A stretch of DNA of 41,379 bases from a virus, in the IMG/VR virus record IMGVR_UViG_3300047586_000019, positions 1 through 41,379 of that record. The stretch is one strand, 5' to 3'. The position numbers and the translations under genes were made by a program. Below, piece by piece: positions 14,575 through 41,379 of the stretch. Each line of letters begins with the position of its first letter. The first letter of the stretch is position 1. The notes below the pieces were generated by a model that worked only from the letters and a program-made list of their open reading frames with translations, had not been told where the DNA came from and ran no database searches.

Positions 14575-15331
14575 TTATTTCTCCAGAGTTCTGGCTACCT
14601 CCATTACTACATTTACTGTTACTGCATTTCCCAACATTTTATTCCTTTGGCTTTCACTAACGCCATTTGTCCATCCTTTTGGAAAACCTTGTAATATCTC
14701 TTTTTCTTCATTCGTAAGTTTTCTTTTAATTCCATTTACTAAAACTCCCCCCGTATTCCCTACATCAATCGTAAAGGCGTAATCTCCCACTATGTTCTTT
14801 TGATTTCTCTTTAAGTAGCGGAGTGGGGTTCTTGTTGCTCCCGATATAAGTTCCGATAATGAAGACTCTTTCACGGTTTTGAGGTAGCCCGAAGAAGCGA
14901 GAGTTAAGCACTTTCCATTCCACGAGATACCCCAAGTCGGTAAGAATTTTAAGTATTGTTTGGAAAGTCCGTCCATTGTCATCAGTAAGTAACCCTTTAA
15001 CATTTTCAAGTAAAAGATATTTGGGTTTTTTGTAGTTGATAATTCTAGCGACTTCAAAGAATAATGTCCCACGGGTGTCCCTAATACCCATTCTTTTACC
15101 AGCATAGCTAAAGGATTGGCAAGGAAAGCCTCCAACAAGTAAATCACAGCTTGGGATTTCTTTTTCTTTAACTTCTTGGATTGGTCTGCAATCAAGTTTG
15201 TTTTTAAAATGTTTGTCATATATTATTTTGCAATACTTATCAAAATCGTTTGCGTAAACGCACTTGTGTCCGAGCCTATTAAGAGCTAAGTCAAAGCCTC
15301 CAATTCCTGCAAATAGACTAACATATCTCAC
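14575..15331 (-). pseudogene. C5-cytosine DNA methyltransferase, frameshifted
   Basis: From a GTG at 15331 the first frame holds motif I FAGIGG (7-12), motif IV GGFPCQS (catalytic Cys 71), motif VI ENV (109-111) and motif VIII QNRERVF (151-157), then stops at 14765. The remaining target-recognition region and motifs IX/X (RKLTNEEKEILQGFP, LGNAVTVNVV) continue in the +1 frame to 14575. One extra C in the CCCC run at 14825-14828 would explain the break. It could be a dead gene, a sequencing error, or programmed slippage. An intact enzyme would protect phage DNA from host restriction or mark it. GTGA couples it to the gene above. Confidence 0.8.
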
Positions 15332-29042: not shown

Positions 29043-29996
29043 ATGGCAGTAGTAGGTGCAAATATTGACAGCGTTACAAATGTCAATACAACTGGCTCAC
29101 TTCCACAAGAAGTAGCAACATATTATGAGAAAGTCTTTTTAACAAGGGCTACTTATGAATTGGTGCTAAAGGAAGGGGGTCAAAATAGAACGACACCAAT
29201 GAATCAAGGTAGATCGGTCAACTTTACAAGGTATGACCCGCTTACGGTTATTACTTCACCCATCGGTGAGGCTTCTAACCCAGCGACCTGTGCAATTAAT
29301 CCATCAACAGTTACTATGACTCTTTCTGAGTACGGTTTAACGACCACTCACGGAAAACTTTTGACTTTAACGTCAATCGATTCTGGAATGAAAGAAAAAG
29401 CAGCTCTTGTAGGACAAAACATGGGAGAAACCTTGAATAGATTGGTTAGACTTGAGTTGGATAATGGAACTTCGTACTATGGAAATTCTCATACCACAGC
29501 AACTTTCACAGCAGGTGATACAATGGATGCTTGTGATATTAGAATCATGGTACAAGCTCTTGAATACAACAAAGCACATCCATTCCAAGATGGATTCTAT
29601 TTAGGAAAGGTTGATTCCTATTCTAAATATAACCTCTTGGGAGATTCAACTTGGGTTAATGCAAAGACGTATTCTGATGTACAGAAATTGTACGCAGGAG
29701 AAATCGGAGAATTATACCAAGTCAGATGGCTTTTGAACTTAGATGATAACTGTGGCATTGAAGCGACTTCAACAGCGTCTTCAGGTGTTACACGTCATTT
29801 CACTTATGTTCACGGTCAAGATGCCTTCGGAGTCTATGACTTGGAGGGCGACCAACCAAAATTAACGATTATTCCAAATGCAGTTGACTCATCGTCTCCA
29901 GCAGGAAGAATCTCGTTTATTTCATGGTCAGGTTCTTACGCTACAAAGTTGCTTAACCCGAAATGGGTTATCGCAGCTAGGTTCGCAGTAGTGTAG
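29043..29996 (+). CDS. Major capsid protein, N4-gp56-like
   Basis: 317 residues. VATYYEKVFLTRATYELVLKE (near 24-44), then IPMN-like TTPMNQGRSVNFTRYDPL, IGEASNPAT, and VTMTLSEYGLTTTHGKLL. This sequence order matches the N4-gp56 family of HK97-fold capsid proteins. Strong ribosome binding site. Followed by a stable hairpin that may define the mRNA end. Confidence 0.9.
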   Translation: MAVVGANIDSVTNVNTTGSLPQEVATYYEKVFLTRATYELVLKEGGQNRTTPMNQGRSVNFTRYDPLTVITSPIGEASNPATCAINPSTVTMTLSEYGLTTTHGKLLTLTSIDSGMKEKAALVGQNMGETLNRLVRLELDNGTSYYGNSHTTATFTAGDTMDACDIRIMVQALEYNKAHPFQDGFYLGKVDSYSKYNLLGDSTWVNAKTYSDVQKLYAGEIGELYQVRWLLNLDDNCGIEATSTASSGVTRHFTYVHGQDAFGVYDLEGDQPKLTIIPNAVDSSSPAGRISFISWSGSYATKLLNPKWVIAARFAVV

Positions 29997-30716: not shown

Positions 30717-30762
30717 AGATACAAAATGGTTCTACTCTGCAAGACATAATGAACAAGAATAA
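30709..30762 (+). CDS. 17-codon frame with strong ribosome binding site
   Basis: MAKDTKWFYSARHNEQE. AAGGAGG lies six bases before the ATG, the best signal in the area, yet the frame closes after 17 codons and overlaps the next start. It may be the leftover start of a larger gene, now coupled to the LamG gene, or a leader peptide. Confidence 0.4.
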   Translation: MAKDTKWFYSARHNEQE

Positions 30763-31396
30763 CGGCTCAGGATATGTCACTGCTGCTAATACTGGTTGGG
30801 ATTTACTTTACAGAGGCGACCACGCAGGACATCCTCTTAATTTTAGGATAAGTAATGGAACATCTACAACTGCAAGTTTTGACTCTACCCCTACGGTGAA
30901 TAAGTATAAATTAGATAATGGTCAATGGCATCATATAGGTATAAGTGGCAAAAGAGGAGGAGCAGGGTTAGTTCATTTATACATAGATGGTAATGATTTG
31001 GGAAGTGAAACCTTTGCTTCTATATCGGGTTCTATATCCTCAACTGGAGTTTTTAGAATAGGTGCAAGAAATGACGGAACGGTAAAGACACTAGGTAATA
31101 TAAAAGATGTAGCAATCTATGACTTCGGAGTAGGAGGAATGCCAGGAGATAATGGTTTGTCAATTATTCAAAACATTTATTATCAAGGTATTTACTCCGC
31201 CACAGGTCTAGTTAGTAAATGGACTTTTAATAACACTCCTAACGATAGTGTAGGTTCTAACAATTTAACCTTAACAGGAAGTCCTAGTTACTCAAGTAAT
31301 GTCCCCTCTCAATTCACAGCCCGTACCCTAGCAGGAGTTAGGACACTTATACCAATAGCACGAACACTTGCAGGAACTAGAATTAAAGTCACTTAA
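30749..31396 (+). CDS. LamG/concanavalin-like virion protein, apparently lacking its N-terminus
   Basis: 215 residues. Starts in what is normally the middle of a LamG beta-sandwich (GWDLLYRGD...LNFRISNGT, then LDNGQWHHIGISG, GLVHLYIDGNDLG, FRIGARNDG, IKDVAIYDF). These folds bind sugars and decorate phage heads or fibres. The ends carry three R-T-L-A-G type repeats. The first strands seem missing, which fits deletion or frameshift with the 17-codon frame above. Just upstream of the sugar island. Confidence 0.7.
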   Translation: MNKNNGSGYVTAANTGWDLLYRGDHAGHPLNFRISNGTSTTASFDSTPTVNKYKLDNGQWHHIGISGKRGGAGLVHLYIDGNDLGSETFASISGSISSTGVFRIGARNDGTVKTLGNIKDVAIYDFGVGGMPGDNGLSIIQNIYYQGIYSATGLVSKWTFNNTPNDSVGSNNLTLTGSPSYSSNVPSQFTARTLAGVRTLIPIARTLAGTRIKVT

Positions 31397-31423: not shown

Positions 31424-31452
31424 TTGACAAGAATAAATAAATCCTTTATACT
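31424..31452 (+). promoter_or_regulatory. Promoter of the carbohydrate island
   Basis: TTGACA (31424-31429), 17-base spacer, TATACT (31447-31452). The first island gene starts at 31470, 17 bases past the -10 box. Unlike the late modules it has no terminator in between. Confidence 0.8.
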
Positions 31453-31469: not shown

Positions 31470-32225
31470 ATGATTTACGTTACTGGGAGCAAAGGATTTT
31501 TAGGAACGCATTTAACTTCTAAATTAGAGGATTTTATTTCTATCCCCCACGATAAAATACAAACTACTAAATTAAAACCTTTTGACAGATTTTTCTTCTG
31601 TAGTAGCTATGGAAACCTAAACTCTCAACAAGAAGAAGACTTAATCTATAAAGCTAATATAGAAGACCTCTTATCAATCTTAAAGCAAATCAAACACTTC
31701 AAATTCAAATCTTTTGTCTTTATCTCAACTTCCTCAGTAGGACTTCGTACTCAAACAACTTATTCAAGGTGTAAGAGAGCCGCAGAGGAAATCCTATTGG
31801 CTTTTATGGAAAAGAATGACTTACCAGTTTGCATAGTTAGACCTTTTACAATCTACGGTCCTGGAGATAATCCTGCCCATCTTATTCCAACGATACTTCG
31901 GTCTTTAGATGGAGAACAAATGAATTTTGTGCCATCTCCTAGCCACGATTACATTTTTATAGATGATGTTGTAGATGGTATTCTTTCACTTAGTGAACAC
32001 GGTGCAAGAGGGATTTATCAACTCGGATATGGCAAGAGTTACTCTAATCAAGAAGTATTAGATTTAATTGAAGATATTACTGGAAAGAAAGCAAAAATTA
32101 ATCTGGTTGATTCAATGAGAGTTTATGATACTCAAGATTGGTTCTCAAACAACTATAAAGCAAGAGGATATGGTTGGATGCCTAAGTATAATTTAAGACA
32201 AGGATTGGAGGAAATTGTTAAATAA
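31470..32225 (+). CDS. NAD-dependent sugar epimerase/dehydratase (extended SDR)
   Basis: 251 residues. Nucleotide-binding TGSKGFLGTH (5-14), STSSVG with the catalytic Ser region, YSRCK as the YxxxK pair near 97-101, VRPFTIYGPGD, and DYIFIDDVVDGI. Extended SDR enzymes of this size change or dehydrate the sugar of an NDP-sugar. Short for the family (often 300-340), with a compact C-terminal substrate domain. First gene of the island. Confidence 0.85.
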   Translation: MIYVTGSKGFLGTHLTSKLEDFISIPHDKIQTTKLKPFDRFFFCSSYGNLNSQQEEDLIYKANIEDLLSILKQIKHFKFKSFVFISTSSVGLRTQTTYSRCKRAAEEILLAFMEKNDLPVCIVRPFTIYGPGDNPAHLIPTILRSLDGEQMNFVPSPSHDYIFIDDVVDGILSLSEHGARGIYQLGYGKSYSNQEVLDLIEDITGKKAKINLVDSMRVYDTQDWFSNNYKARGYGWMPKYNLRQGLEEIVK

Positions 32226-32832
32226 GCTTGAACAGAGAATTATTCAGTTAAGTTATAAACACGGACTTTCACATCTATCCAGTTGTTTAACAGCTATAGG
32301 AATAATTGATAAGACCTACAAAATTAAAAAGGAGAACGAACCCTTTATTTTAGATAATGGTCATGCTGGATTAGCTTTATATGTTGTTCTTGAGAAACTC
32401 TACTTCAAAGATGCAGAGAAGTTATTTCAAAAGCATGGAGTACATCCTAATAGAGATTTAGAAGATGGAATCTATGCTTCAGCAGGTTCTTTAGGTCATG
32501 GAATAGGTATTGGAGTTGGAATGGCACTTGCAAATAGAAAAAGAAATGTATTTGTATTAACAAGTGATGGAGCAATGGCAGAAGGAAGTAATTGGGAAGC
32601 ACTTCGTATTGCAGGAGACCAAAGACTTGAAAATTTAAGAGTAGCTATTAATGCTAATGGTTATAGTGCCTATGATAAAACAGAAGTTGATTTGTTGGAG
32701 TTAAGATTAAGATTATTTTATCCCTGTTTATTCATAAGAACTAATATGTTTGCTTATCCTGATTTTTTACAAGGTTTAGAAGCTCATTATAAAGTATTAA
32801 ATGCAAAAGAGTTTGAGGAGTTAATGAAATGA
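32215..32832 (+). CDS. Transketolase N-terminal subunit, minimal form
   Basis: 205 residues from a TTG with GGAGG before it. FILDNGHAGLALY, GSLGHGIGIGVGMA, and SDGAMAEGSNWEALRIAG...LRVAINANG make up the thiamine-diphosphate-binding half of transketolase (GDG...N motif). Split transketolases usually have about 270 residues here, so this is a trimmed version. With the next gene it should move a two-carbon ketol unit between sugar phosphates. Confidence 0.85.
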   Translation: MLNKLEQRIIQLSYKHGLSHLSSCLTAIGIIDKTYKIKKENEPFILDNGHAGLALYVVLEKLYFKDAEKLFQKHGVHPNRDLEDGIYASAGSLGHGIGIGVGMALANRKRNVFVLTSDGAMAEGSNWEALRIAGDQRLENLRVAINANGYSAYDKTEVDLLELRLRLFYPCLFIRTNMFAYPDFLQGLEAHYKVLNAKEFEELMK

Positions 32833-33293
32833 GAAAAGAATTTTTTAAACAACTTTACGAAGTAATGAAGAATAATTCTAATGTTTGGGCATTGACAGGA
32901 GACTTAGGATATGGTGGATTTGATAAGATAAGAAAAGATTTTCCAAATAGATTTTTAAATTGTGGTGCTTCGGAGCAGACAATGTTAGATTTAGCAGTAG
33001 GTCTGTCTTATGCAGAACAAATTCCTTTTGTATATACAATAACCCCATTCTTTTTAAGAGGATTTGAAACATTACGAACATATATTTCTCATGAGAATTT
33101 ACCAATTAAACTTTGTGGTAGTGGTAGAGATAATGATTATGAAGTAGATGGATTTTCTCACGATGCTACAGATTTTCAACGAATACTATCTACTTTAGAT
33201 ATTATTCAAGATTATCCAGAAGAATTAAGTAAAGATTATGTTGCAAAGATGGTTAAAAGGAAATTCCCAGAATTTGTTTCACTTAAAAGATGA
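32829..33293 (+). CDS. Transketolase C-terminal subunit, pyrimidine domain only
   Basis: 154 residues. WALTGDLGYGGFDKIR, NCGASEQTMLDLAVGLSYA with the catalytic Glu of the pyrimidine-binding domain, and FLRGFETLR. The family's usual third (C-terminal) domain is missing; typical subunits have about 310 residues. ATGA overlap with the N-subunit gene ensures equal amounts. It pairs with that subunit. Confidence 0.85.
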   Translation: MRKEFFKQLYEVMKNNSNVWALTGDLGYGGFDKIRKDFPNRFLNCGASEQTMLDLAVGLSYAEQIPFVYTITPFFLRGFETLRTYISHENLPIKLCGSGRDNDYEVDGFSHDATDFQRILSTLDIIQDYPEELSKDYVAKMVKRKFPEFVSLKR

Positions 33294-34036
33294 CTTGTTT
33301 TTACACAGCATATAGTCCGACATTTGAAGAGGTAGGTAAGGGATTAGTAAATTCTATTAAAAAATTCTACCCTGATATTCCTGTACTTGAGTTTAAATGG
33401 GAACTTTCTAAAGAACCTTCTCCTCATGCTTATCATGGAGATACTTTTGATTTACAAGCTTTTAATCAATTCGTAGTAAATAAAGGTAAAGAATTACTTG
33501 AAAAATATGACAGGATAATCTGGATTGATGCAGATTCAATTATGTGTGCTCCCTGCCCAGATTTATTTGGAGATTTTGATATGGGAGTTCCTCATAACAA
33601 CTGGCCTTATCTTGAAATAGCAAATAAAGACTTACACTATGCAAACGCAGGAATGGTAGTTGGAGTCAATAAAGATACATGGCAGGAATGGATTGATGAA
33701 TTAAAAAGATTTGATGATAGATTTCATGGTGCTGCTTGGGATGTTTTAAATTTCAATAACTCTTTAAATAAAGTTTATCATGATTCTAAAGCAAACATAA
33801 AGTTGTTAGAATTTGAAGACAGGGTTTATGGAATATCTAAAATGGACACTTATAAAGAAATGTCTTTAAAAGACGAAGAATTATGGATTAATGAAAAGAA
33901 ACTTTGTATCTTCCATGCAGCAGGAGATGAATGGAAAGATTGTCTAGGAAAGATTAGATTTGATAGAATTACAGATAAAGAAGCAGCTAAATATCTTGAA
34001 AGTTTACAAGGAAAGGAGGCAAATGAACAAAACTAA
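33290..34036 (+). CDS. Glycosyltransferase-like protein (DAD motif)
   Basis: 248 residues. N-terminal nucleotide-sugar fold (YTAYSPTFEEVGKGLVNSIK), IIWIDADSIM with DxD (80-82), ANAGMVVGV, and a late FHAAG. This order fits GT-A transferases related to GT8-like groups. Similar in plan to the gene at 37577. Coupled by ATGA to the transketolase. It likely adds a sugar made by the island. Confidence 0.7.
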   Translation: MTCFYTAYSPTFEEVGKGLVNSIKKFYPDIPVLEFKWELSKEPSPHAYHGDTFDLQAFNQFVVNKGKELLEKYDRIIWIDADSIMCAPCPDLFGDFDMGVPHNNWPYLEIANKDLHYANAGMVVGVNKDTWQEWIDELKRFDDRFHGAAWDVLNFNNSLNKVYHDSKANIKLLEFEDRVYGISKMDTYKEMSLKDEELWINEKKLCIFHAAGDEWKDCLGKIRFDRITDKEAAKYLESLQGKEANEQN

Positions 34037-34712
34037 ATTAGGAGGTATTTTTTATCCAACAGTTGACCAAAGTGGAAATGAAATTCCATTTGATTCTCTA
34101 TATATTCCAGCAATTTACAATGAGATTTGGAATGAAGGAGTTTACTTGGATATTTTGAATCAAAAGAAAGATATGACTATTATTGATGTTGGAAGCAATA
34201 TCGGTATCACAGTACATCATTTCTTGCCATATGCTAAGAAGATTTATGCTATTGAACCAAGTCCAGAACACTTTGCAGCTTTAAGTAAGAACAAAGAGTT
34301 TAATAATTGGGATAAAGTTGAAGTATTTAATCTAGCATTAGCAGATAAAGATGGAGAAATGGAATTTCATCAAAGTCCAAAAAATAGGACTACCAATCAG
34401 TTAATTCAAGGACAACAAGTGTCTCAGGGTTGGTATAATGAAGAAGTACTTAAAGTTAAAACACAATCAATAGACCATTTCTTTGAAGAAAACAAGATAA
34501 AACATGTTGATTTTATGAAGTTTGACCCAGAAGGTGCAGAAGACCTTATTCTTAGAAGTGATGGATTCAAAAAGATTGCAGATAAGGTAGATGCTTTAGA
34601 AGTTGAATTTCACTATCCGACATGGAGAGAATTAGTAGATTATTTAATCTTGATGGGTTATAAGGCAAGACAATACGATTCAAGTGCGAAAATAGTACTT
34701 TTCTTTCGTTAA
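34023..34712 (+). CDS. FkbM-family methyltransferase
   Basis: 229 residues from ATG 34023, after GGAGGC. SAM-binding IIDVGSNIG (53-61), YAIEPSPEHFAAL, NLALADKDGEMEFH, SIDHFFEE and HVDFMKFDPEGAEDLIL are the FkbM pattern. These enzymes O-methylate sugars and other hydroxyls. It would cap or decorate the glycan. Confidence 0.9.
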   Translation: MNKTKLGGIFYPTVDQSGNEIPFDSLYIPAIYNEIWNEGVYLDILNQKKDMTIIDVGSNIGITVHHFLPYAKKIYAIEPSPEHFAALSKNKEFNNWDKVEVFNLALADKDGEMEFHQSPKNRTTNQLIQGQQVSQGWYNEEVLKVKTQSIDHFFEENKIKHVDFMKFDPEGAEDLILRSDGFKKIADKVDALEVEFHYPTWRELVDYLILMGYKARQYDSSAKIVLFFR

Positions 34713-34713
34713 T

Positions 34714-35211
34714 ATGAGAGTTAAACAAATTCTTAAAGAGATAAATCAGGTCTTTAAAACGGCTGATAAATATCAATGGTTAGCTTTTATGAATGAGATT
34801 ATAAGAGCAGATAACATCGTTGTTGTTGGTGCTGGCAGGATGGGACTTACCTGTAAGGGATTTTCTATGCGACTTAATCATCTCGGTCTTAATGCTTCTT
34901 TCTTAGGAGATTCAAATGTAAGTAAAGCAGATTTAATGATTATTGCTTCAGGTTCAGGAGAGACTCAGACTATCTATGATTTAGCTAAAAAAGCTAAGAA
35001 ACTTTGTCTTATCACAACTAATCCTAACTCAAGAATAGGGAAGTTAGCTAAAGTAATCGTAGAATTAAACGTAGAGGATTCAAAACAGCCTATGAAAACT
35101 CTTATGGAACAATCCACTCAGATTTTCTTTGATGCTATGGTTTTGGAGTTGATGGATTTATTAAGTGAAACAAACGACAGTATGTCAGAAAGGCACACAG
35201 ATTTAGAATGA
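34714..35211 (+). CDS. SIS-domain sugar-phosphate isomerase, 6-phospho-3-hexuloisomerase-like
   Basis: 165 residues. VVVGAGRMGLTCKGFSMRLNHLG (36-58), IIASGSGET (76-84), LITTNPNSRIGKLA, a TLMEQSTQIFFDAMVLELM helix and a final MSERHTDLE. This order, and the RH.DLE ending, fit PHI (HxlB) better than GmhA. PHI converts a 3-hexulose 6-phosphate and fructose 6-phosphate. A heptose isomerase cannot be excluded. Confidence 0.8.
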   Translation: MRVKQILKEINQVFKTADKYQWLAFMNEIIRADNIVVVGAGRMGLTCKGFSMRLNHLGLNASFLGDSNVSKADLMIIASGSGETQTIYDLAKKAKKLCLITTNPNSRIGKLAKVIVELNVEDSKQPMKTLMEQSTQIFFDAMVLELMDLLSETNDSMSERHTDLE

Positions 35212-35675
35212 AACTTTACGCATCTTTAATCGCTGGAGATTTAGGTAACATTAGGCAACAAATAAAGGATTTGGAAGAAGCAGGGATAGACGGGATTCAC
35301 TTTGACGTAATGGATGGGGTAGCTGTACCTCGTTTTGGTTTACCACCAGAGATTCTAAAGATAGTCAAAGAAACAACCGAGTTACCTGTATTTGTTCACC
35401 TAATGGTAAGCAAACATCAAGAGATATTCCAACAAGATGACAGTATAGAACTAATTATGGGAATAGTACCTGGAACTTCAGGTCAACCTATTCTACCAGA
35501 CACTTACCAGAGAATAAGAGATTATAAGGGAGATAAACCGATTATGGTTGACGGTGGAGTAACTTTAGAAACAGCCCCTTTATTAAAAGAAGCAGGAGCA
35601 AGTATTTTAGTAGTTGGTAGAGTTATCTTTGAGGGTGATTTAAAAGAAAATATAAGGAGATTCCATGAAATTTAA
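35208..35675 (+). CDS. Ribulose-phosphate 3-epimerase-like, internally shortened
   Basis: 155 residues. SLIAGDLGNIRQQIKDLEEAG, IHFDVMDG (30-37), VHLMV (63-67), then MGIVPGTSGQ, MVDGGV and ILVVGRVIF. Motifs of the epimerase are in order, but normal enzymes have about 220 residues. About 60 residues between HLMV and the GTSGQ loop (two barrel strands) are missing. His31, Asp33 and His64 are kept. It may still interconvert ribulose- and xylulose-5-phosphate, or have a new role. ATGA to the gene above. Confidence 0.75.
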   Translation: MKLYASLIAGDLGNIRQQIKDLEEAGIDGIHFDVMDGVAVPRFGLPPEILKIVKETTELPVFVHLMVSKHQEIFQQDDSIELIMGIVPGTSGQPILPDTYQRIRDYKGDKPIMVDGGVTLETAPLLKEAGASILVVGRVIFEGDLKENIRRFHEI

Positions 35676-37149
35676 AGTTTTAATAACAACTTCAGGTTTA
35701 GGATCACGTTTGGGTGAGTTCACTAAGTTTACGAATAAGGCTCTTATCAGAATCAAAGATAAGCCAGTCATCTCTTATATCGTTGAGAGTTATCCTAAAA
35801 CGACAGAGTTTGTGGTTACTTTAGGGTATTTTGGGGATCACGTCAGACAATTCTTAGAGATAGCTTATCCTGATAGAAAGTTTACTTTTGTTAATATAGA
35901 CAATTATGAGGGTAAAGGTAGTAGTTTACTTCATTCGATGTTAAAAGCCAAGAGATATCTTCAATGTCCGTTTATTTTCCATGCTTCAGATACTTTAGTC
36001 TATGAAAAGATACCTTGTCCTTCAGTTAATTGGAATGGTGGGTTCAAAGGTACTAATGGAGCTTTATATCGTTCTTTTGACGTAATGGATAGGGAGATTG
36101 TTAAATTCTACGATAAAGGAATGATTAAACCCGACTTTTTACATATTGGACTTGTAGGAGTTCACGATTACAAGACTTTCTGGAAAGAAGCTAAAAAAGG
36201 TGGAGAAACGGATGTATCGGTAATTGAGAAGATGAACTTTAAAGTAGTTGAATTTAAAGAATGGAGTGATACGGGTAATGTTCAATCCCTTTATGAGACT
36301 TGGGAGAAGTTCAACGATTTGAATAGAGTTATGGATAAGACAGGTGAGTCTACGTTCTTTATTAATGGTTATGTTATTAAGTTCTTTTCTGATGAAAGAA
36401 CAGTATGGGAAAAAGTAGTAAGAGCAAATTACTTAAAAGGTTTTGTTCCTGAAGTAATTGCTAGTTCCAATAATTTCTTTAAGTATAAGTATGTTAAAGG
36501 AGAACTCTTAGCAGATATTTGTACTCCTAAAGAGTTTAAGAAGTTCCTTGATTGGTTAGAAACCAAATTTTGGACTGTTGATAATAAACCCATATGGGAA
36601 GAATGTCAAAAATTCTATTTAGATAAAACTCTTGAAAGAGTAATTACATTCCTTAATTCTCACAACCTTATAGATAAAGAAGACGTTATTAATGGAATTA
36701 AAGTTCCAACGATTTCTTTTATGTTAAAAGATTTATGTGATGTTTACGATGGGTTTGCAAGTAGATTTCATGGAGATTTAATTTTAGATAATGTAATCAA
36801 AACAAAGAAGGGATATACACTTCTTGATTGGAGACAGAACTTCGCAGGTGATTTAGAGGTTGGAGATATGTATTATGATCTAGCAAAACTTAATCATAAT
36901 CTTACTATAAATCATAATGTTGTTAATAAAGGATTATTTACGGTTAAAATTAATAAGAATGAAGTCTTTGTAGATATTTTACGTTCTAATAGATTAGTTG
37001 AATGTCAGAATGTATTAAAACCTGATAGAGAATTAAATATTCTTACTGCACTCATTTGGTTGAATATGTCTCCTTTACACCAACATCCTTTTGACTTATT
37101 CCTTTATTATTTTGGTAAGTATAAATTATGGGAAGCTATAAGAATTTAA
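35665..37149 (+). CDS. Sugar nucleotidyltransferase fused to an aminoglycoside/choline-kinase-type kinase
   Basis: 494 residues. Residues 1-225: nucleotidyltransferase with SGLGSRLGEFTKFTNKALI (10-28), IHASDTLV-like DxD area and a DTGN near the end. Residues 240-494: kinase with FHGDLILDNVI (HxDxxxxN near 367) and LLDWRQNFAGDLEVGDMYYD, where DWR stands for the usual DxE. It would phosphorylate and then activate a sugar to an NDP-sugar, or join two such steps. The substrate is unknown. Confidence 0.8.
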   Translation: MKFKVLITTSGLGSRLGEFTKFTNKALIRIKDKPVISYIVESYPKTTEFVVTLGYFGDHVRQFLEIAYPDRKFTFVNIDNYEGKGSSLLHSMLKAKRYLQCPFIFHASDTLVYEKIPCPSVNWNGGFKGTNGALYRSFDVMDREIVKFYDKGMIKPDFLHIGLVGVHDYKTFWKEAKKGGETDVSVIEKMNFKVVEFKEWSDTGNVQSLYETWEKFNDLNRVMDKTGESTFFINGYVIKFFSDERTVWEKVVRANYLKGFVPEVIASSNNFFKYKYVKGELLADICTPKEFKKFLDWLETKFWTVDNKPIWEECQKFYLDKTLERVITFLNSHNLIDKEDVINGIKVPTISFMLKDLCDVYDGFASRFHGDLILDNVIKTKKGYTLLDWRQNFAGDLEVGDMYYDLAKLNHNLTINHNVVNKGLFTVKINKNEVFVDILRSNRLVECQNVLKPDRELNILTALIWLNMSPLHQHPFDLFLYYFGKYKLWEAIRI

Positions 37150-37580
37150 TTATTGATGTAGATGGAGTTTTAACAGATGGAGGAATGTACTATTCAACTG
37201 ATGGTAAGGTAATGAAGAAATTCGGTGCTGATGATGCAGATGCACTTAATTTAATCAAGGACAGAATAAATATCCTTATTATTACAGGAGATAAAAGAGG
37301 TTATAAAATTACCAAGAAAAGGATAGATGATATGGGATTAAAACTTGCTTTGGTTAGTACATCTAAGCGTCTACAATGGCTTGAGAAGCGTTTTAATCTA
37401 AAAGAGACAATCTATATCGGAGATGGAATCTTTGATTATTTAGTCTTTGAGAAAGTTGGTTACAGTATTGCACCTGCTAATGCTTTTAAGTTCACTAAAA
37501 ACAAAGCAGATTATGTAACTAAAAAGAAAGGTGGAGATGGTGCAGTTGCGGAAGCAGTTGTACATATTCTAAGTTTATGA
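37128..37580 (+). CDS. KdsC/YrbI-like HAD phosphatase
   Basis: 150 residues. IIDVDGVLTDGGMYYSTDG (8-26) with the catalytic Asp pair, ITGDKRG, and YIGDGIFDYLVFEKVGYSIAPANA. Length and motifs fit KDO-8-phosphate phosphatase-like enzymes, which remove phosphate from nine- or eight-carbon sugar phosphates. It overlaps the fusion gene end by 22 bases. Confidence 0.85.
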   Translation: MGSYKNLIIDVDGVLTDGGMYYSTDGKVMKKFGADDADALNLIKDRINILIITGDKRGYKITKKRIDDMGLKLALVSTSKRLQWLEKRFNLKETIYIGDGIFDYLVFEKVGYSIAPANAFKFTKNKADYVTKKKGGDGAVAEAVVHILSL

Positions 37581-38305
37581 AGAAGGTTTGTTTTACAGCC
37601 GTAGAAGATAGATTATATTATGGAGAAGGAACTCCCATAATGATTAACTCGTTTAAGAGATGGCATCCCGATATTGATTTAGTGGTCTTCAGACAGGATG
37701 TAGTAGACAAACTCTTTCCAGAAAAGAAAATTAACTGGTATATGGCGAAACCTTTCTTTGCAGAACTCTTAGAAGATAAGTACGATTTAATCGTAAACGC
37801 TGATGCTGACCACATCTTCCTAAGTAGAATGACAGAAGTTTTTGACAAGGTAGATTATGAAGTGGCTTGTCCTTGGAACCTTAATGATTATGAAAACGCT
37901 TCTTTTGCTAACATAACCGAAGAAATGTATTTACAAGGGGGAATGGTTGCTTCTACTTCCCATGATTTCTGGAAGAAGTGGAGAGAAGCCAATAAAGATG
38001 CTATGGATTATCTAAGAAAAGAGAATGATGTAATGAACTTAGTTATTTACAATAATAAATTCAAGTTAAAAATCCTAGATAAAGAAAAAGATTATTATGG
38101 TTGCAAGTCTTTGGGCAGAGAAGCAGAGTTCTATATTGAGGATGGTAAAACGATGTGTAGAAAAGAACAGGTAATTGCTTATCATTTCGCCAGAGGAAAT
38201 GTATTTCCGAAATTAGACATAGCAAACATGGCCTTGACTGATGAAGTAAAAGAAGAATGGTTCAAAAATCATTATGGACAATCAGTAAAGGTGGTAGGAC
38301 TATGA
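37577..38305 (+). CDS. Glycosyltransferase-like protein (DAD motif), second copy
   Basis: 242 residues. Starts MKKVCFTAVEDRLYYGEG. YDLIVNADADHIFL holds DxD at 76-78, and QGGMVASTSHDFWKKW follows the pattern of the gene at 33290 (AGMVVGVNKDTWQEW). HFARGN occurs late. A GT-A sugar transferase is likely. ATGA overlaps on both ends. Confidence 0.7.
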   Translation: MKKVCFTAVEDRLYYGEGTPIMINSFKRWHPDIDLVVFRQDVVDKLFPEKKINWYMAKPFFAELLEDKYDLIVNADADHIFLSRMTEVFDKVDYEVACPWNLNDYENASFANITEEMYLQGGMVASTSHDFWKKWREANKDAMDYLRKENDVMNLVIYNNKFKLKILDKEKDYYGCKSLGREAEFYIEDGKTMCRKEQVIAYHFARGNVFPKLDIANMALTDEVKEEWFKNHYGQSVKVVGL

Positions 38306-38481
38306 GTTTTAAACAAATAGGAGAACCTGAGTTTAAATGTATGGATTGCGGAAGAAACTATTCAATTAGTCAACCCGATGCTCAATTTGGTTTATGGAGA
38401 AACGGAGAGTTAATTAAATGTTCTAAATGTTTTGAAGAAATGAAACATCAGTTTTGGTTAGAAAGGATGGAACAAGAATGA
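38302..38481 (+). CDS. Zinc-ribbon protein inside the sugar operon, 59 residues
   Basis: FKCMDCGRNYS and IKCSKCFEEMK give two CxxC pairs about 30 residues apart. The start uses ATGA with the preceding stop. The stop overlaps the next start. Unusual company for glycan enzymes. Possibly a small regulator or chaperone. Confidence 0.6.
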   Translation: MSFKQIGEPEFKCMDCGRNYSISQPDAQFGLWRNGELIKCSKCFEEMKHQFWLERMEQE

Positions 38482-39242
38482 AGCCCTATCTTATTAGAAG
38501 TCCACAGTTTGATGTAACCAGTGGGGGAATTAGAGTTCTCTATGGACTTTATGGTCATTTATTGGCTAAAGGACAGGTAGCTTACCTTAATTCAGTTGTT
38601 GATATAGATGCAATAGCTATTTATCCTGAAATCTTTCATGGAAACGATATGATGGGTAAAAAAGTAGTCAGGTATGTCTTACAAGAGGCTGGAAGGGCTG
38701 GAACTGATACTCAGTTTGGTAAATTCACTCTTGGACCTAAAGAATTTGATAAAACAGATGAAATTTATTGCTTTTCTAAGATTTATGATAAGTGGGGACT
38801 TCCTGATGACCATATTCTATTCCTACCTATTATAAACATGATGGAATTTAGAGATTTTGGTAAAAAGAGAACTAAGACAGCCTTTTACGCCTTCAGAGAT
38901 ACAAACCTAAAGAAACACCCAGAAGATGCTATTGAGATTACCAGAGAGATGGCAAAAGACCAATCTAAATTAGCAGAGATACTTAACGAGTGCCAAACTT
39001 TGTATGTTTATGATGAAATTACAGCCATGCTTGAAGTAGCTCGTTTATGTGGAGTGAATATTGAATATTGGGGAAGAACACCTTTAGAAACATTTAAGAG
39101 TTATGAGCCTGGATTGAATGGAATAGGTTACCGTACTTCAGCAGAACTTGATACAAAAGGTTTCCGAAGACACTACGAAGACCTGAGACGCACTTTTGAC
39201 CTTAAGCTTGACCAATTTATAACCGATACACAACATGATTAA
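38478..39242 (+). CDS. Glycosyltransferase, capsule type
   Basis: 254 residues from ATG 38478. SGGIRVLYGLYGHLLAKG is the acceptor-side start of GT4-like transferases, AIYPEIFHGNDMMGKKVVRYVLQEAG their common YPE.....VVR segment, and TLYVYDEITAMLEVARLCG an E-x7-E-type region. The overall plan fits polysaccharide transferases found in capsule loci. Confidence 0.75.
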   Translation: MKPYLIRSPQFDVTSGGIRVLYGLYGHLLAKGQVAYLNSVVDIDAIAIYPEIFHGNDMMGKKVVRYVLQEAGRAGTDTQFGKFTLGPKEFDKTDEIYCFSKIYDKWGLPDDHILFLPIINMMEFRDFGKKRTKTAFYAFRDTNLKKHPEDAIEITREMAKDQSKLAEILNECQTLYVYDEITAMLEVARLCGVNIEYWGRTPLETFKSYEPGLNGIGYRTSAELDTKGFRRHYEDLRRTFDLKLDQFITDTQHD

Positions 39243-40314
39243 AATATTTTCGTTGCCTGCCCACCAAGAGAAAACCAGAACTCATGGAGCTGATATGGTT
39301 CGTATCATTCAGCCCATGAAATACTTAGGGAAGGAAAAAGGGTTCAAGACTACTATCTATGATATGGAAGAACAGACTACAGACGTTAAGTATCTTTTAG
39401 ATGTAGCTAGAAATAATGACATTATCTACTTTAATTATATGTCTGATCCGTGGGGATTTGCTCACATGGGAGCTTTTGCAAGAAAATTTGGTACTAAGCT
39501 AATTATGGATATAGATGATGATATTTGGGATACTCATACGGACAATCCAGCCCATCCTCAATGGGCAAAAGGCGGAGAAAAGATAAGAAACTTTACCCTT
39601 ATTTGTAACGAGGTAGATTATATTACCTGTACGAATGACTACTTAAAACACGTTATTATGAATCATACTAATAAAACAGCAGATAAGATTAAGGTTATTC
39701 CTAATTACATTGACCTTTCTCTTTATAAACATAGAAGTCCTTTTAAGAATGACGGAGAGATAGTGCTAACTTATTTTGGAAGTTCAACTCACTGGTTAGA
39801 TTTAAGTGAAACAGAATTTGTTAGGGGAATGGAAAGAATAATGAAAGAATATCCTAATGCTAAATTTAGAACAATCGGAGCTTGGAAACAGGATTTTAGA
39901 AAGAAATGGGGAGCAAGATACGAAAATTTATTTGGTCATCAAGACGTTTATCATTGGATAGCCGATAAGGATAAATTTCCTATGTATATGGACGAAACTG
40001 ATATTATGGTTGTTCCACTCGTTTCAGATATTTATAATCAATGCAAGAGTCAGATTAAATGGCTAGAAGCTTCTAGTGCTAAGAAACCAGGAGTTTGGAA
40101 AAGAATAAGACAATATGAGGAAGTGGTTGACGGAACTAATGGAATCCTCGCTTCTAAAGATACAGAATGGTACAGAGCAATTAAGTACCTAATTACGAAT
40201 CCCGATAAACGAAAAGCAATGGGAGAAAAGGCTTTTGAAGATGTGAACAAGTGGACAATTCAAAAGAATATAGATATATATAAAGACTTTTTCAAAGAGG
40301 TATTGACAAAGTAA
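39235..40314 (+). CDS. Glycosyltransferase family 4-like (GT-B)
   Basis: 359 residues. SLPAHQEKTRTHGADMVRII, an IDDDIWD motif near 87, KVIPNYIDLSLYKH (near 160), VLTYFGSSTHW, and a C-terminal E-rich EASSAKKPGVW...NGILA donor-binding area, the GT-B arrangement. Last gene of the island. Its 3' end contains the promoter of the next module. Confidence 0.8.
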   Translation: MIKIFSLPAHQEKTRTHGADMVRIIQPMKYLGKEKGFKTTIYDMEEQTTDVKYLLDVARNNDIIYFNYMSDPWGFAHMGAFARKFGTKLIMDIDDDIWDTHTDNPAHPQWAKGGEKIRNFTLICNEVDYITCTNDYLKHVIMNHTNKTADKIKVIPNYIDLSLYKHRSPFKNDGEIVLTYFGSSTHWLDLSETEFVRGMERIMKEYPNAKFRTIGAWKQDFRKKWGARYENLFGHQDVYHWIADKDKFPMYMDETDIMVVPLVSDIYNQCKSQIKWLEASSAKKPGVWKRIRQYEEVVDGTNGILASKDTEWYRAIKYLITNPDKRKAMGEKAFEDVNKWTIQKNIDIYKDFFKEVLTK

Positions 40315-40331: not shown

Positions 40332-40366
40332 TTAGTAGCTGATACTAACAATGTATTAGATAGGCA

Positions 40367-40389
40367 ACCTGTTAGGGTTGTCTTTTTTT
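40367..40389 (+). terminator. Intrinsic terminator 50 bases after promoter D
   Basis: GGCAACC-TGTTA-GGGTTGTC (one G-U pair) and seven T at 40383-40389. Ten bases later the ATG at 40400 starts the next gene. A small CTAA...TTAG hairpin precedes it. Confidence 0.75.
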
Positions 40390-40985: not shown

Positions 40986-41379
40986 ATGAGTCAACAAGCA
41001 AATACATTAAACTTACAACAAGCAGGACAATCTGGAGGATTAACATATCAAGCTCCTTCATTAAGTGGTCAAATTCAAAATCAACTATTTACAGGCTTTG
41101 GACTAATTAAACCAGCTTATGCAGATACTCCAACTCCTGATAATACATTAAACTTACAACAAGCAGGACAATCTGGAGGATTAACATATCAAGCTCCAAC
41201 ACCAGCTCCAACACCAGCCGCAGGTATGCCTGGAAGTGGAACAAACGCCGCAGGAGTTCCTGATAATCAACCATCTGATCCCTATGCTTCAATCAAAGCA
41301 GGAATTTCATCAGCTTGGGATGATTTTATCAATCAATTAGGGGATATTCAAAATAATTATCTTCCTTCTCAGGCTACAG
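40986..41379 (+). CDS. Q/N-rich virion protein, 5' part (continues at 79 through the overlap)
   Basis: Starts MSQQANTLNLQQAGQSGGLT. A 56-base perfect repeat (41001-41056 and 41142-41197) encodes NTLNLQQAGQSGGLTYQAP twice, with FTGFGLIKPAYADTPTPD between. Then a Pro/Thr-rich part leads into the segment shared with 79-205. No Shine-Dalgarno sequence is seen. The full protein would have about 340 residues. The repeat unit may vary in number between strains. Confidence 0.75.
   Translation, partial: MSQQANTLNLQQAGQSGGLTYQAPSLSGQIQNQLFTGFGLIKPAYADTPTPDNTLNLQQAGQSGGLTYQAPTPAPTPAAGMPGSGTNAAGVPDNQPSDPYASIKAGISSAWDDFINQLGDIQNNYLPSQAT
41001..41056 (+). repeat. 56-bp direct repeat inside the Q/N-rich gene, first copy
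   Basis: Identical to 41142-41197, in the same reading frame, 141 bases apart (47 codons). Perfect DNA identity over 56 bases points to recent duplication or ongoing exchange. Confidence 0.9.
41142..41197 (+). repeat. 56-bp direct repeat inside the Q/N-rich gene, second copy
   Basis: Second copy of the repeat at 41001-41056. Immediately after it the sequence diverges (APTPAPTPAAG here). The window start shows a related but different segment (QQPTPTPKPANG). Confidence 0.9.
41253..41379. repeat. 127-bp terminal overlap, right copy
   Basis: Identical to 79-205. Closing the map here gives 41,174 bp and joins the 40986 frame to the 834 stop without a shift. Confidence 0.9.

Follow-up and report, generated by a model that had tools for sequence, protein, structure and literature searches.

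Phage RB69 (Mosigvirus) carries arabinosyl-hydroxymethylcytosine (arabinosyl-hmC) (PMC6024577), and large cyanophages contain lipopolysaccharide (LPS)-type clusters for which a role in excluding other phages has been suggested (PMC2984593; PMC9602691). Mycobacteriophage virions bear glycans on capsid and tail proteins, according to Freeman 2023 as cited in PMC12619734. For bacteria, a 2025 review describes a split-gene transketolase and an oxidoreductase proposed to act in miharamycin and amipurimycin biosynthesis by transferring a hydroxyacetyl group to a keto sugar, without in vitro proof, and an analogous step performed by YerE with pyruvate on CDP-4-keto-3,6-dideoxyglucose (PMC12247030). 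These systems were compared with an island of sugar-biosynthesis and glycosylation genes at positions 31470-40314 of a 41,379-nucleotide stretch of DNA (the window), which is the entire IMG/VR virus record IMGVR_UViG_3300047586_000019 and comes from an uncultured phage. The island consists of two modules, a core and an inserted cassette, and is not a single pathway.

Each described system resembles the island in part. The RB69 module includes a SIS isomerase, a nucleotidyltransferase and kinase-like protein and a small HAD-like protein with remote homology to the cassette. The miharamycin and amipurimycin systems are likened to the core by description, not by sequence, in having a two-gene transketolase, an oxidoreductase and a proposed hydroxyacetyl branch; they belong to Streptomyces antibiotic clusters, and the activity is unproven there as well. 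YerE, in the yersiniose pathway, is also a thiamine enzyme that adds a two-carbon branch to CDP-4-keto-3,6-dideoxyglucose, but it is a single-chain enzyme of the decarboxylase type that uses pyruvate, whereas the window encodes a transketolase-type pair. The split transketolase of Carboxydothermus hydrogenoformans (6yaj/6yak) likewise has two chains, but retains a C-terminal domain (a 341-residue chain versus 154) and has no known link to a short-chain dehydrogenase/reductase (SDR). The cyanophage LPS clusters, such as that of P-SSM2, also combine phage-borne sugar biosynthesis and glycosyltransferase genes, in genomes much larger than the window. For mycobacteriophage virion glycosylation, we know of no sugar biosynthesis module of the island kind. 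An earlier note on this DNA had stated that no described phage system has this exact set; within the reach of the searches the complete set is new, and its parts have known relatives.

The same note listed twelve consecutive, mostly overlapping genes, and the map of open reading frames (ORFs) bore this out, with overlaps mainly of 4-26 bases. A thirteenth small ORF, containing a CxxC motif, was added between GT2 and GT3. The genes are listed below with their supporting evidence in brackets (NDP, nucleoside diphosphate; GT, glycosyltransferase-like protein).

31470..32225, + strand: SDR, minimal NDP-sugar epimerase/reductase-type dehydrogenase, 251 aa, core (PF01370, 5.8e-23)
32215..32832, + strand: TKN, thiamine-diphosphate-binding half of the split transketolase, 205 aa, core (PF00456, Transketolase_N, 3e-11)
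32829..33293, + strand: TKP, pyrimidine-binding half of the split transketolase, 154 aa, core (PF02779, Transket_pyr, 3.1e-13)
33290..34036, + strand: GT1, glycosyltransferase-like, variable (related to GT2)
34023..34712, + strand: FkbM-type methyltransferase, core (PF05050, 6.8e-17; TIGR01444, 7.2e-27)
34714..35211, + strand: SIS sugar-phosphate isomerase, hexuloisomerase-like, cassette (TIGR03127, 3.5e-42)
35208..35675, + strand: Rpe-like ketose-phosphate 3-epimerase with an in-frame internal deletion, cassette (PF00834, 6.2e-26)
35665..37149, + strand: NTK, nucleotidyltransferase fused to an APH-type kinase, cassette (alignments, structure profile)
37128..37580, + strand: KdsC-like HAD phosphatase, cassette (TIGR01670, 1.9e-27)
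37577..38305, + strand: GT2, glycosyltransferase-like with a conserved DxD motif, core (conservation in relatives)
38302..38481, + strand: small CxxC (zinc-ribbon-like) protein (ORF within 38257-38481; only weak zinc-finger matches)
38478..39242, + strand: GT3, GT-B-like glycosyltransferase (weak assignment from a structure model), core (23-sequence alignment, structure model)
39235..40314, + strand: GT4, GT-B glycosyltransferase, core (PF13692, 5e-9; phrog_7162, 3.9e-28)

Conservation of the core and its minimal split transketolase

The core, made up of the SDR, the split transketolase, the FkbM methyltransferase and three glycosyltransferase-like proteins, is a conserved arrangement. Searches with the TKN protein recovered seven contigs at 47-78% identity. 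Six of the seven, as far as the fragments extend, showed the order capsid gene, variable genes, SDR-TKN-TKP, FkbM, GT2-GT4 and the next virion gene; contig L006 was without an SDR at the expected place. When only the capsid protein was used as bait, TKN was found in 17 of the 18 contigs (some of them near copies) that had at least 8 kb past the capsid gene. Alignment-based searching detected TKN relatives in at least 254 viral contigs, and the best 80 of 254 viral stretches were retained. Across 82 TKN loci, SDR-TKN-TKP were contiguous among the recognised genes in 63, and FkbM stood directly before TKN in nine. The trio is also present in Patescibacteria. A collection of 50,697 phage records gave only remote matches to the minimal split transketolase, with none found in cultured phages, and a literature search found no phage transketolase.

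These comparisons also bear on a misassembly of the phage with a host capsule segment. The GC content of the island is slightly below that of the head genes (0.33 vs 0.39), as a foreign segment might show, but independent contigs share the flanking genes with homologous proteins and TKN relatives recur across the viral contigs counted above. The syntenic contigs exclude misassembly for the core, where it is already refuted, and its remaining probability is negligible.

The YxxxK and glycine motifs of the SDR are conserved and the dehydratase TDE motif is absent, which fits an epimerase, an oxidoreductase or a side-chain reductase. The split transketolase, proposed beforehand, was supported by family searches and is here corrected to a minimal form of 205 + 154 aa with no C-terminal domain. 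TKN matched solved transketolase structures in profile searches, and the nearest solved relative of TKP was 6yaj from Carboxydothermus. Residues H20, H50, H77, D118, E123 and N148 of TKN (96 sequences) and E49 and H111 of TKP (90 sequences) were invariant or nearly so, and they include the thiamine-diphosphate/metal motif, the catalytic glutamate and the substrate histidines, by correspondence with the numbering of the yeast enzyme. Judged by these residues, the minimal split transketolase looks active.

The pyrimidine domain was the sole match in TKP, with no Transketolase_C domain. Not counting one fragment, phage TKP proteins were approximately 140-199 aa long; those of Patescibacteria and of one Omnitrophota locus measured 158-175 aa, again without one cut copy, and those of other bacteria 291-364 aa, with one shorter exception (L158). 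These classes indicate that the C-terminal domain is gone throughout the phage and Patescibacterial branch. On one Patescibacteria contig (L087, 9983-20692), the TKN domain opens a 3569-aa ORF, far longer than any other TKN.

Nearly all of the enzyme assignments in the earlier note were supported by family or profile searches, the exceptions being GT1 and GT2, which had no library match, and GT3, which was assigned from its model. For GT1-GT3, no function emerged from Pfam, PHROGs or PDB profiles (GT1 and GT3 were not run in every library). GT1 is present in few relatives, matching a homologue in L010 at 33% and GT2 proteins at 24-29%, and from its sequence it is recognisable solely as a relative of GT2. 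The DxD motif of GT2 was invariant among relatives. The GT3 model was confident (predicted local distance difference test score, 93.6), and its nearest solved folds were GT-B glycosyltransferases with weak E-values, so that the model weakly suggests a GT-B-like glycosyltransferase. GT4 was matched by several GT-B families.

The inserted cassette

The SIS, Rpe, NTK and KdsC-like HAD genes are placed between FkbM and GT2, and no other small phage with the core was seen to carry this cassette. Whole-record searches of 81 viral TKN-bearing records detected no Rpe (PF00834), and the single match in the search of TKN-bearing records was a full-length copy in a bacterial metagenome-assembled genome. 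Neither SIS nor KdsC-like genes turned up in the parts of viral TKN-bearing records that were fetched, and NTK alone recurred in L080 and L082, both large phages with the trio. The cassette recurs in large phages, in related arrangements: SIS-Rpe-NTK in L320 (a 75-kb phage contig) and L306, HAD-SIS-Rpe-NTK in L307 (a 184-kb contig), NTK-HAD in L318, and Rpe-NTK followed by HAD in L309, beside a thymidylate-synthase-family gene. The row in L309 (6516-11521) reads thymidylate-synthase-family gene, Rpe, NTK, another gene and KdsC-like phosphatase, and is a candidate DNA-glycosylation locus in a large phage.

The SIS protein scored 144.3 bits against TIGR03127 (6-phospho-3-hexuloisomerase), below the curated cut-off of 160, while its L320 homologue scored 195.6; by structure profile it was nearest to 1m3s and also matched the arabinose 5-phosphate isomerase 2xhz. 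The epimerase-like assignment held in the PF00834 search (91.5 bits, cut-off 21.1) and is corrected to a truncated barrel: the model is six-stranded and resembles Rpe folds, short of a complete (beta/alpha)8 barrel. The metal ligands His31, Asp33, His64 and Asp115 are kept, and the protein may represent either a reduced enzyme or one in decay, the host Rpe serving in the latter case. NTK was weak in Pfam and clear by profile against solved structures. An alignment search gave 225 viral relatives of NTK, single-protein viral scans with NTK or Rpe gave no matches, and against plasmids NTK produced nothing beyond partial nucleotidyltransferase matches. In the cultured Enterococcus phage 9183 (L003, 9645-11620), a remote NTK relative follows an HAD-family gene in a nucleotide-metabolism block.

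The NTK profile matched RB69 052c (41 bits) and 053c (23 bits), and the SIS profile matched 055c (20 bits). By analogy with RB69, the cassette probably makes an NDP-pentose; because the SIS protein is hexuloisomerase-like, a hexose is a possible product as well. This relationship, together with the thymidylate-synthase-family gene adjoining the L309 cassette, would accord with DNA hypermodification, in which sugars are placed on phage DNA like the arabinose of RB69. The RB69 module differs in having no Rpe in the stretch examined, in lying close to DNA polymerase and to a dCMP hydroxymethylase-like gene, and in modifying DNA. The window contains no thymidylate-synthase-family gene (no PF00303 match in its record, with the controls positive), and the island adjoins capsid genes, not replication genes, which makes DNA hypermodification improbable.

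The earlier note had read the island as one pentose-phosphate-type route to an activated ketose or heptose, with transfer and methylation. In such a continuous route the transketolase would yield a pentulose or heptulose phosphate, to be reshaped by Rpe and SIS and then activated by the kinase, phosphatase and nucleotidyltransferase. All of the genes do share one operon in the window, and the logic resembles the known heptose pathway, which consists of an isomerase, a kinase, a phosphatase and a nucleotidyltransferase. Sugar synthesis, activation, transfer and methylation are supported; the single route is not. The transketolase pair travels with the SDR and with 4,6-dehydratases or RfbH, not with Rpe and SIS. 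Rpe occurred in no other viral TKN-bearing record searched, the minimal transketolase was not near the cassette in the cassette phages found, and most trio loci are without a sugar kinase or a nucleotidyltransferase of the NTK type. We consider the single route improbable. As a separate cassette akin to RB69, Rpe/SIS/NTK/HAD more likely makes an NDP-aldose. A transketolase mainly feeding Rpe was also considered and was rejected, the two gene sets being separate.

Proposed sugar chemistry and target

In the bacterial loci L116, L117 and L162, split transketolases are clustered with glucose-1-phosphate cytidylyltransferase, CDP-glucose 4,6-dehydratase and RfbH. The L117 cytidylyltransferase scored 415 bits, and CDP-glucose 4,6-dehydratase and RfbH scored 469 and 689 bits in the same bacterial cluster type. 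RfbF-like genes lie near the Patescibacterial loci L093, L097 and L098. Among phages, L080 carries an RfbH over the curated cut-off and a dTDP-glucose 4,6-dehydratase-like SDR, true RfbH motifs were found in four loci, and a dehydratase with the motif STDEVYG adjoins the transketolase in several large-phage loci. From the CDP- and dTDP-glucose 4,6-dehydratases and RfbH near these relatives, we infer a two-carbon transfer onto a 4-keto nucleotide sugar, chemistry for which the miharamycin proposal and YerE are precedents.

We propose that the island is a late-operon glycan factory built of two modules. In the core, the SDR would prepare a keto nucleotide sugar or reduce the branched product, and TKN with the C-domain-less TKP would take a ketol unit of two carbons from a ketose phosphate of the host and transfer it to the ketone of the nucleotide sugar, giving a nucleotide sugar with a two-carbon branch. 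FkbM would methylate, and GT2-GT4 would attach the product. The cassette would make a second activated sugar by way of Rpe, SIS, the HAD phosphatase, an anomeric kinase and the nucleotidyltransferase, most likely an NDP-pentose such as D-arabinose, and the glycan would most likely decorate a virion protein. This reading draws on the genes observed, their conservation and neighbourhoods, the occurrence of core and cassette apart from each other and the retention of catalytic residues, from which all substrates and products, the ketone as acceptor and the target are proposed; as a whole it is tentative, with somewhat less than an even chance of being correct.

Several observations weigh against the two-module proposal. 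Neither a dehydratase nor RfbH was found in the window or in the sequence fetched for the small-phage family, so that the host must supply the keto sugar, and the transketolases of the bacterial RfbF/G/H clusters carry the C-terminal domain, unlike the minimal form. SDRs adjacent to the transketolase do not form a single clade; most fell in a 42-row group of the SDR tree (37 adjacent to a transketolase), and many of the remaining adjacent SDRs were RmlB-like dehydratases of large phages. The SIS protein is hexuloisomerase-like rather than KdsD-like, and by alignment and model the window Rpe is missing approximately 60-75 residues, equal to two of eight barrel units. That the minimal split transketolase and its dedicated SDR, as a widespread family in uncultured phages and Patescibacteria, carry out ketol transfer onto a nucleotide-sugar ketone to build branched sugars, with which small phages glycosylate their own particles, is possible but doubtful.

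Among the virion, the cell surface and DNA, the virion is the favoured target, given that the island lies beside the capsid gene and that a variable, often large protein is encoded just upstream of the SDR. A late virion role, as suggested before, would agree with this location. Remodelling of the host surface would instead place the glycan on the host envelope, for example excluding other phages. The LPS-type clusters of large cyanophages have such a proposed role, and Patescibacterial trios are found in apparent polysaccharide loci, but the island lies inside the virion gene block of a small phage and no flippase or membrane polymerase gene was recognised, which leaves this explanation unlikely.

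Ketone-accepting transketolases have been proposed in antibiotic clusters and never shown in vitro (PMC12247030). Since the present enzymes are small, have two subunits and a regular partner SDR and occur in hundreds of natural variants, the question of a ketone acceptor is directly testable, and we regard the conserved family of SDR and two-domain split transketolase as the most valuable outcome. If the product decorates virions, a phage of ~41 kb would devote about a fifth of its genome to making and attaching a surface sugar of its own, a core trait that an entire phage lineage would retain.

Genome ends, flanks and candidate expression signals

The final 127 bases of the window (41253-41379) recur at 79-205. 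In relatives, the ORF left open at the right end runs on into the ORF at 52-834; the window genome is therefore probably near complete, with its ends joining. Upstream of the island are the major capsid protein (29043-29996, phrog_1357) and a few small genes, and downstream is a block including a 1218-aa protein that weakly resembles an internal virion protein. The earlier placement of the island between head and tail genes is thus loose.

Two candidate expression signals were identified at the borders of the island.

31424..31452, + strand: promoter-like site TTGACA-17-TATACT before the SDR (11/12 consensus matches)
40362..40383, + strand: terminator-like hairpin after GT4 (9-pair stem, T run)

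The claim that the island has its own promoter gained comparative support. Matches of at least 10/12 were found before the SDR in 15 of 32 relatives, compared to 4 of 239 other island-gene starts (Fisher p ~1e-12), although the other island genes overlap their neighbours and have little upstream space, and the relatives are not independent. Promoter-like matches across the region were at chance level (49 vs 49.0), and the SDR promoter therefore rests on the comparison among relatives. The frequency of terminator-like sites across the region as a whole was not above chance.

The slot before the SDR is occupied in the window by a LamG/concanavalin-like protein (30749-31396), a candidate receptor-binding or glycan-carrying protein. 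In relatives, the slot holds differing, often far larger proteins, or additional glycosyltransferases. Elsewhere in the window, an ORF on the minus strand (14575-15219) matches only the C-terminal end of C5-cytosine DNA methylases (PF00145, 269-323 of 324) and is possibly a fragment or a split gene.

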